From Thermosipho sp. (in: thermotogales) (lineage in GTDB: Bacteria; Thermotogota; Thermotogae; Thermotogales; Fervidobacteriaceae), in the NCBI GenBank assembly GCA_030153605.1, contig JASKLO010000001.1, positions 62,001 through 126,000 on the forward strand: 64,000 nt of DNA, written 5' to 3'. Made by a program: the position numbers and the translations under genes. The notes under the pieces were generated by a model. It saw only the letters and a program-made list of their open reading frames with translations, searched no databases and had not been told where the DNA came from. Shown here piece by piece: positions 20,200 to 22,625 of the stretch (its first letter is position 1; the number at the start of each line of letters is the position of its first letter).

Positions 20200-20980
20200 C
20201 ATTTATATCTTCAAATATTTTTAAAAACGTCTTTTCATCTACTTGTTCTGGCCTAAGATTCAAATCATATTTCTCTTTTAGTGGTTCCAAATCTTTAACA
20301 AAATTTTTTAAGTTATTATTTAAAGTTTTCCTTTTTTGTCCAAAGCATTTTGATATAAACTCCCAATATTTTTGAATATTATAAGCTTTATAAATTTGTT
20401 CGTTCTTTTTGATTTTTAAAACAATACTGTCTACTTTTGGATTTGGAACAAAATTACCTTTTGAAACAGTTAAAATCTTTTCCACAGAACAAAAAGTTTG
20501 AATAACCACTGTTAAAAAACCCCTATTAGAGTCTCCAACAGGAGCAAGTAATCTTTCTCCAACTTCTTTCTGAACCATCAAATAAGCTTCAGAAAATTCA
20601 GAAAATAACAATTTTTTCAATATAGGCCCTGTTATCGAATATGGAATATTAGAAACAACTTTAAAGTCTTTTGGCAAAAATGATATATCAAGTTTTAAAA
20701 AATCTTCAAAAATTAAAGTAAAATTTTTGTATTTTTTTAACCTTTCAAGCAAAACTTCTAATCTTTTATCAATTTCAACTGCAAAGACTTTTGCACCAGT
20801 CTTCAATAATTCTTCCGTTAATGTCCCCGCGCCCGGACCAATCTCTAAAACTACATCTTTATCACTTATATTTGCAAGCTCAACTATTTTTTCTGCAATA
20901 GATGAATTAGAAAGAAAATTTTGCCCCAAATTCTTGTTCAATTTTATTCCATACTTTTTCAATAAATCAGAGGTTTTCAC
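20189..20980 (-). CDS. ksgA: 16S rRNA dimethyladenosine transferase KsgA/RsmA
   Basis: This protein of about 263 residues dimethylates A1518/A1519 in 16S rRNA helix 45. It has NLGQNFL, the SAM motif EIGPGAGTLTEEL, and the catalytic SNIPYSITGPI (NxPY type). Start codons GTG 20980, TTG 20986 and TTG 20998 are all in frame; the family N-terminus (KTSDLLKKYGIKL) favours 20980 or 20986. It overlaps the end of the preceding secreted-protein gene. It is co-linear with fmt, trmFO and smpB, a translation-rich block. Confidence 0.95.
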   Translation of the reverse strand: MKTSDLLKKYGIKLNKNLGQNFLSNSSIAEKIVELANISDKDVVLEIGPGAGTLTEELLKTGAKVFAVEIDKRLEVLLERLKKYKNFTLIFEDFLKLDISFLPKDFKVVSNIPYSITGPILKKLLFSEFSEAYLMVQKEVGERLLAPVGDSNRGFLTVVIQTFCSVEKILTVSKGNFVPNPKVDSIVLKIKKNEQIYKAYNIQKYWEFISKCFGQKRKTLNNNLKNFVKDLEPLKEKYDLNLRPEQVDEKTFLKIFEDINGPN

Positions 20981-21587
20981 TATCAACCAGCTCCACAATA
21001 ATTGAAGAACTTGGATATTCTATTTTTAAAATTTTTCCATTTTTAAAAGTAATCAAAATTTTTTCTTCTTGATATGAAATTTCAAATATATCACCATCTT
21101 TTTTTAGTGAAGCTTTACCAACAGCATATTCTGTTTTTGAAGGATTAAATAATAATTGGGGAATTACCAATTCAAAAGTTGGTGCAGGGTATTCTATTAT
21201 CTTTAAAAAGTGCGAAAGAATAAAATTATTGTCTAAAATTACCAATTTTTGCCTATTTATGGAAACAGTATTTGATCCCACTTGGGATTCAAATACAAAA
21301 TTTGCTACTTTTCCATCATAATTGCCTGTAATTTCTCCTGTGAGTGTTCCATCAACGCTAAAAGAAACCACATAATCCTTAAAATATGGGCCTTCAAATG
21401 TTGTGGTAGATTCAACTACAAACTCAGTCCCATATTCTATAGTAGTTATAACCTTATAAATATCAGAAGAAATTTCAAGTAAAACAGATGTGCCAAGAGA
21501 AGTTTCTCCCATCTTTATAGAATACACGTCATTTGCAAAACTAAAAATTGAAAATAAAATCAAAAATACTAACAATATCCTTTTCAT
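20967..21587 (-). CDS. Secreted protein of unknown function
   Basis: This 206-residue protein has a clear signal peptide (MKRILLVFLILFSIFSFAND). The mature part is rich in beta-strand patterns with repeated polar/hydrophobic alternation (for example EISSDIYKVITTIEYGTEF). This resembles outer-membrane or periplasmic lipid-binding beta proteins, but no family is recognised. It does not end in an aromatic residue, so a barrel is less likely than for the two others in the window. It lies between the ispF fusion gene and ksgA and overlaps ksgA. Confidence 0.62.
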   Translation of the reverse strand: MKRILLVFLILFSIFSFANDVYSIKMGETSLGTSVLLEISSDIYKVITTIEYGTEFVVESTTTFEGPYFKDYVVSFSVDGTLTGEITGNYDGKVANFVFESQVGSNTVSINRQKLVILDNNFILSHFLKIIEYPAPTFELVIPQLLFNPSKTEYAVGKASLKKDGDIFEISYQEEKILITFKNGKILKIEYPSSSIIVELVDSENL

Positions 21588-21605: not shown

Positions 21606-22601
21606 TTATATGACTATTAAATTACTTACACAGATTGAAGTTATTCCAACACCTTTAGATTCAGGATAAACATCATTTCCAGTTTTAAACTTCAAACTAA
21701 CTTCACAATTTAATATATTTGAAAGGTTTTCAGAAATTTTTTCTCTAAACTGTCCAAGCTTGTGTTTAGTTATAACAACACAATCCACATTTGTTGGAAA
21801 ATAGCCTTTTTCTTTTATCATCCTTAAAGACTCTTTTAACATATCTACACTACTAATTCCCTTGGGAACAACACTTTCTGGAAAAACTTTCCCTATATCA
21901 ACTTTTAATGAGACTCCCAATAAAGAATCAATAATACTATGGATAACCACATCTGCATCAGAATGGCCTTTCAATCCAAAGTTATATGGAATTTCTATTC
22001 CACCTAAAATTAATCTTCCTCCTTCTTCAATTGCATGTGTGTCCCAACCAATACCACTGACTGTTTTATAACTCATTTTTTTATGCATTCTAACAATTTT
22101 GTCGTTTAAAATCTGACTTTCAGAAAACCCAAATGTCTCATATTTCTTTAATATTGTTTTCGGTACATCTGCAATAATTTTTGAATGGTCATGAGAAATT
22201 ATAAACCTATACAATAATTCATATTCTATATCCAAAGATTTTCCAGAAATAGAAATTATATAAACATCATCCAACGAAAAATTTATTAGTATTTGTCCTA
22301 TTATTGATGATAACTTTAATCCCGTTCCAAAAACTTTAAGCCCAAGAATTTTAAACCATTTTTCATATCCATGCCTAAAAGCACTTTTAGGAGCAAATAA
22401 CAATACTCCTAAAACTTTTCCATTATCATCTTCAAAAACAATTGAATTTTCTGGAAGAAATGGTGGAATAGATTTAGAAATTGCTTTTTCTAAAATCTTT
22501 TCGGGATTTTTAAAAAGAAAATCAAAATAATCCTTTTTTTCAAGGTAGATTAATTTTACACATTCTTTATAATTTTTTTCATTTATTGTTGTTATTCTCA
22601 A
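21606..22601 (-). CDS. ispF: GNAT-like domain fused to MECDP synthase IspF
   Basis: This protein of about 331 residues has two parts. The C-terminal ~152 residues are 2-C-methyl-D-erythritol 2,4-cyclodiphosphate synthase: GIGWDTHAIEEGG with the metal-binding D-x-H, GHSDADVVIHSIIDSLLG, VDIGKVFP, and a later TGNDVYPESKGVGI. The N-terminal ~170 residues look like a GNAT acetyltransferase (GKVLGVLLFAP core strand and KKYETFGF near its end). IspF is usually a lone ~155-residue protein, or fused to IspD. There is no stop or SD at the junction (near 22064). I chose TTG 22601, placed six bases after GAGGTG; a GTG at 22610 lies inside that SD. The GNAT substrate is unknown. Confidence 0.88.
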   Translation of the reverse strand: MRITTINEKNYKECVKLIYLEKKDYFDFLFKNPEKILEKAISKSIPPFLPENSIVFEDDNGKVLGVLLFAPKSAFRHGYEKWFKILGLKVFGTGLKLSSIIGQILINFSLDDVYIISISGKSLDIEYELLYRFIISHDHSKIIADVPKTILKKYETFGFSESQILNDKIVRMHKKMSYKTVSGIGWDTHAIEEGGRLILGGIEIPYNFGLKGHSDADVVIHSIIDSLLGVSLKVDIGKVFPESVVPKGISSVDMLKESLRMIKEKGYFPTNVDCVVITKHKLGQFREKISENLSNILNCEVSLKFKTGNDVYPESKGVGITSICVSNLIVI

Positions 22602-22625
22602 GACGGACACCTCATTACTTTCAAA

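Follow-up and report, generated by a model that had tools for sequence, protein, structure and literature searches.

A GNAT-Derived, Putatively Inert Domain Is Fused to the Sole IspF in a Family of Thermotogota

Introduction

IspD is the established partner domain of IspF, the MEcPP synthase. In the window, that is, the whole stretch of 64,000 nucleotides of Thermosipho DNA that was analyzed, ispF appeared to be joined in one reading frame to a GNAT-like domain, and no description of such a fusion was found in the open-licence papers searched. The locus therefore raises the question of whether the two halves truly form one protein, and what a GNAT-like domain might do on an essential enzyme of isoprenoid synthesis.

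Results and Discussion

The Fused Gene and Its Distribution in Thermotogota

The gene and its translation signal were located as follows.

21606..22601, minus strand: fused GNAT/IspF gene, 331 aa, with a TTG start at 22601 and the stop at 21606-21608
22608..22613, minus strand: ribosome-binding site GAGGTG, 6 nt 5′ of the TTG, with its placement kept in relatives

The initial annotation had given the locus as 21606-22601 without stating a strand. These coordinates were correct, and the gene was found to lie on the minus strand, the plus-strand frame over the same interval being riddled with stops. The mechanical ORF, 21606-22610 (minus), encodes 334 aa from a GTG at 22610. Because GAGGTG lies 6 nt upstream and the start region of relatives is organized similarly, the TTG at 22601, which is also the annotated end, is the likely start, giving a predicted protein of 331 aa.

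No internal stop interrupts the fused frame. The comparison set comprised 103 genomes of the phylum, in which the window's family (f1) is represented by 20 genomes from five genera. IspF was present in 97 of the 103 genomes, and in every f1 genome it lay inside an open frame of 329-359 residues. A frameshift or missed stop between the domains was thus ruled out, and the fusion is neither a chance event nor a sequencing artefact. Each of the 20 genomes carries one IspF, the fused protein being the sole copy, so that the annotated GNAT–IspF fusion, upheld by profile, fold and comparative evidence, is fixed in this family. The nearest named relatives, the two close ones found by a single-sequence search, were Thermosipho MAGs, 83% and 79% identical.

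In the other families, the IspF frame was mostly 155-190 residues long. Longer frames occur there as well, with a start codon at most a few residues ahead of IspF (except in family f11 and in one unclear case, L031 of G092), and are considered open run-ons because a start codon well ahead of IspF is missing. The N-terminal domain was detected among the 103 genomes only in the 20 of f1, and always within the IspF frame (E <= 0.001); additional matches of its profile (A2) were weak only (E 5e-4 and higher), with real GNATs among them. A fusion of former neighbors was also considered and provisionally rejected, as no obvious GNAT lay beside stand-alone ispF in the ORF lists of the other families.

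Separately, the sole IspF match of genome G041 (C7:407989-408445, minus) is split over three frames, probably because the gene has decayed or because of errors in assembly or sequencing.

The N-Terminal Domain Has a Predicted GNAT Fold

Three features of the N-terminal half are referred to below.

22071..22601, minus strand: pseudo-GNAT domain, residues 1-177 (hhalign 98.4%, AlphaFold2 pLDDT 88, Foldseek GNAT matches)
22281..22388, minus strand: inserted helical segment, residues 72-107, including FRHGYxKWFxxLG (72-88)
22194..22268, minus strand: beta4-alpha3 region, residues 112-136, lacking R-x-x-G-x-G (a 10-residue gap in 20/20 fused domains)

Residues 1-177 gave no significant match in Pfam, NCBIfam or PDB sequence searches, and no curated GNAT model scored above its cut-off, with Acetyltransf_7 appearing in only 2 of the 20 members (best E 0.016). 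The GNAT nature proposed in the initial annotation was therefore not supported by Pfam or NCBIfam, but it was supported by profile-profile comparison and by the predicted fold. In detail, hhalign aligned the fused domains (A2) with 24 stand-alone Thermotogota GNATs (A3) over 160 columns (98.4%, E 6e-15). AlphaFold2, supplied with the 20 family sequences, returned a monomer model with a pLDDT of 89 (full length) or 88 (N-terminal domain by itself), in which the predicted order of elements, beta1-alpha1-alpha2-beta2-beta3-[helix 79-107]-beta4-alpha3-beta5-alpha4-beta6-beta7, is the GNAT topology. The two stretches that had suggested a GNAT in the initial annotation were placed accordingly, GKVLGVLLFAP as strand beta3 and KKYETFGF in the alpha4/beta6 region. 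A Foldseek search of the domain against the PDB yielded 225 matches with E <= 0.001 (best E 3.8e-7), and the 50 matches listed were all acetyltransferases or HAT-like domains.

Further, the fused domains share with the A3 stand-alone GNATs (e.g., L096 and L082) a common element order, an F-x-x-LFG-type start and a long beta3-beta4 insert. Based on the hhalign match together with the predicted GNAT fold and its structural matches, the N-terminal domain is judged to derive from this GNAT group of the same phylum.

Catalytic Features of GNATs Are Lost From the Fused Domain

In GNATs, the P-loop holds the CoA pyrophosphate (PMC4964394). The acyl-CoA phosphate loop R-x-x-G-x-G is kept in 24/24 of the stand-alone relatives, as are Asn161, Ala164, Tyr168, and Gly172. 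In contrast, R-x-x-G-x-G, Asn161, and Ala164 are absent from the fused domains, and Tyr168 and Gly172 are variable. The joint alignment showed that the VDxxxRGxGx of the stand-alone enzymes corresponds to a 10-residue gap in 20/20 fused domains, none of which has a Q/R-x-x-G-x-G/A motif between beta4 and alpha3. Ten of the fused sequences match a loosened form of the motif at other places in the fold, nine with KVxGTG and the tenth with KNFGFA, and these are regarded as chance matches. The Asn that is invariant at the start of alpha4 in stand-alone GNATs is also deleted, while the position of the general-acid Tyr is occupied by Tyr in 14 of the 20 fused domains and by Phe in six.

Because the P-loop is deleted, the domain is described here as GNAT-derived and is not classed as a GNAT acetyltransferase. 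The loss of the CoA phosphate loop from all fused domains, as against its presence in all stand-alone relatives, makes acyl transfer unlikely, and we infer that the domain is catalytically inert. The loss of CoA binding falls short of proof, since some GNATs, such as AAC(2′)-Ic and PseH, bind acyl-CoA with atypical P-loops (PMC4964394).

The Fused Domain Is Under Purifying Selection

Across the five genera, 29 positions of the N-terminal domain are invariant. Its most conserved element is FRHGYxKWFxxLG (residues 72-88), with 7 of 17 positions invariant, which lies at the edge of the stretch that has the lowest confidence in the monomer model; alpha4 and beta6 are more variable than the remaining domain. 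The dN/dS values, simple Nei-Gojobori counts that are rough where dS exceeds 1, were 0.04-0.12 for the N-terminal domain and 0.03-0.14 for the IspF half (pairs with estimable dS). The N-terminal domain is therefore under strong purifying selection. The conserved segment 72-88 may provide a contact site for something beyond the monomer, be it a subunit, a partner or a ligand.

The IspF Half Retains the Zinc Ligands and Lacks the Acidic Second-Metal Ligand

The C-terminal half and its metal sites were assigned as follows.

21609..22070, minus strand: IspF (MEcPP synthase) domain, residues 178-331 (PF02542, TIGR00151, Foldseek 3esj with E 2.4e-17)
22035..22043, minus strand: D187-T-H189, Zn ligands (E. 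coli D8, H10), invariant
21939..21965, minus strand: H213-S-D-A-D...H221 (E. coli H34, S35, D38, and Zn ligand H42), invariant
21675..21686, minus strand: K306-T-G-N309, replacing E. coli T132-T133-T134-E135, with Asn at the Mg2+ ligand position

PF02542 matched residues 183-326 with E 6e-40 and 137.6 bits (cut-off 26.7), and TIGR00151 scored 120 bits (cut-off 116.45). As in stand-alone IspF/YgbB proteins of these families, the fold, the Zn ligands and the substrate-binding H-S-D motif are present; D8, H10, H42, and H-S-D are intact in 20/20 f1 IspFs. The IspF half had been called complete, which holds for the Zn ligands and the fold but not for the second (Mg2+) metal ligand, as the acidic residue at position 135 is replaced by Asn in 20/20 f1 IspFs. 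This position, a Mg2+/Mn2+ ligand, was reported to be Glu or Asp without exception across 450 sequences (PMC2151065), or Glu in 81% and Asp in 18% (PMC3927217), so the Lys132/Asn135 pair departs from a published near-universal Glu/Asp.

Among 93 Thermotogota IspFs, Lys132/Asn135 was present in 80/80 from f1, f2, f3, f9, f10, and f11, whereas Thr132/Glu135 was kept in 13/13 from f7 and f8. Thus, five families besides f1 have Asn135 in their stand-alone IspFs, each of these being the only IspF found in its genome. Because fused and stand-alone IspFs alike carry the swap, it is not tied to the fusion, and loss of Glu135 as a result of the fusion was ruled out. These substitutions suggest that the Lys132/Asn135 IspFs may do without the second metal.

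Besides the added N-terminal domain and the Lys132/Asn135 pair in place of Thr/Glu, the fused protein differs from stand-alone IspF by having Tyr-Pro at positions 138-139, close to the central cavity, a pair that is invariant in f1 and restricted to it; E. coli has Gly-Phe there, its Phe139 forming part of the wall of the cavity in which isoprenoid diphosphates bind (PMC2151065). IspG and IspE were encoded in 20/20 f1 genomes, and IspD was encoded in all but one (19/20), a genome that is 60% complete. The IspF half should be active as an MEcPP synthase, despite the replaced Mg2+ ligand.

Two other sequence features were noted outside the window's family. At the position of E. coli Asp56, 33/34 of the f9 and f10 IspFs (e.g., L077, L075, and L076) have Asn or Ser, and f9 IspFs are four residues shorter after position 139.

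Possible Roles of the Fused Domain

We consider it probable that the pseudo-GNAT module serves the sole MEcPP synthase as a scaffold or as an allosteric control element. An A3-type GNAT acetyltransferase would have become fused in frame with ispF no later than in the f1 ancestor, and would have lost the acyl-CoA phosphate loop as well as the CoA-contacting start of alpha4, with strong purifying selection then retaining the domain. As a trimer, the C-terminal half would convert CDP-ME2P to MEcPP and CMP in the usual IspF manner, and the N-terminal half, most likely without acyl transfer, would be a structural or allosteric module that acts, probably via segment 72-88, by setting the oligomeric state of IspF, binding a partner or tying its activity to a ligand. 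Of the classes of mechanism considered, that of a scaffold or regulator, which we infer, is best supported. The initial annotation had offered a non-catalytic regulatory or oligomerization domain beside acylation of a protein or small molecule; the former accounts for the data better, and the latter is disfavored by the deleted loop and the variable general-acid position. A more elaborate version, that the domain senses a metabolite or partner to set MEP flux and that Lys132 substitutes for the charge-neutralizing role of the second metal, yielding a regulated one-metal MEcPP synthase, appears rather unlikely.

A narrower form of the scaffold or allosteric explanation, tenable but somewhat doubtful in our estimate, confines the domain to oligomerization or thermostability: pseudo-GNATs would pair across IspF trimers to build larger assemblies, as IspD does in IspDF, with no regulation involved. 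GNAT domains often dimerize, the pseudo-HAT of O-GlcNAcase forms inert homodimers (PMC12494797), and the uncertainty of the conserved segment 72-88 in the monomer model is what an interface would produce; the organisms are also presumably thermophilic, judging from the genus. However, the stand-alone IspFs of other Thermotogota families work without any such domain. That the domain is instead a functionless relic of the fusion, kept since its deletion would disturb IspF translation or folding, would agree with the lost catalytic features and the higher variability of alpha4 and beta6, but the 29 invariant positions over five genera, the low dN/dS and the invariant positions within segment 72-88 make this improbable. 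Still less credit is given to the idea that the domain is an active acyltransferase whose CoA site is atypical and whose target is IspF itself, a small molecule or a protein of the MEP pathway. The GNAT fold kept in the predicted structure, the Tyr that most members have at the general-acid position and the existence of active GNATs with atypical P-loops (PMC4964394) favor it, whereas the whole loop is gone in all members, the alpha4-start Asn is deleted, and Tyr has changed to Phe in six members.

Known systems offer partial parallels to a scaffold or allosteric module. In the bifunctional IspDF of Campylobacter jejuni (1w55) and Helicobacter pylori (8xhu), IspF is likewise C-terminal, but the partner here is a GNAT-fold domain, and the gene for IspD lies at another place in the genome; the fused chain contains no IspD domain, as PRK09382 scored 119 bits versus 417 and matched the IspF part only. 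The pseudo-HAT of O-GlcNAcase is also a GNAT-fold domain on an unrelated enzyme, does not bind acetyl-CoA, and has been proposed to play an allosteric role (PMC12494797); since it is C-terminal, eukaryotic, and attached to a different enzyme, it is an analogy and not a fusion of common descent. Eis and MshD similarly retain a non-catalytic GNAT domain in a larger chain, that of Eis lacking the P-loop Gln/Arg (PMC4964394), but their partner is another, active GNAT domain, unlike IspF here. Isoprenoid feedback via the central cavity of IspF is so far an unproven proposal (PMC2151065; PMC3927217), and a fixed, selected pseudo-acetyltransferase on the sole MEcPP synthase provides a natural system for studying IspF regulation. 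Likewise, the natural Lys132/Asn135 variants make the role of the second metal directly testable in IspF, an antimicrobial drug target.

A Second Extended IspF and the Gene Neighborhood

The IspFs of family f11 (L079:4131-4925, plus; L078:4436-5290, minus) carry about 115-125 extra N-terminal residues, the end of which resembles the C-terminal half of a GNAT by eye. Alignment of this extension with the fused GNAT domain gave hhalign E values of 0.24 and 0.08, and HMM scores were no better than those of shuffles, so that it is possibly a shortened GNAT, without profile support. In the IspF tree, f11 was placed beside f1 (support 88/92) on long branches, a placement compatible with, but not decisive for, a common origin of the two extensions.

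The fused gene lies 24 nt downstream of glgC, in the order smpB-deoC-glgD-glgC-GNAT/IspF. This upstream order was kept in the genera compared, with a DUF4899 gene intervening after glgC outside the window's genus; its product has a C-terminal membrane segment (L070:3955-4938, plus; L072:6366-7355, minus), and a search of the window's genome gave no match to it. Directly downstream of the fusion, 20967-21587 (minus) encodes a 206-residue protein with an N-terminal signal-like stretch and no significant Pfam family, its position being kept in some genera. A small exported-looking protein gene, ksgA, fmt, and trmFO followed the fusion in three of the five genera examined. Co-transcription of the fused gene with its neighbors is likely.
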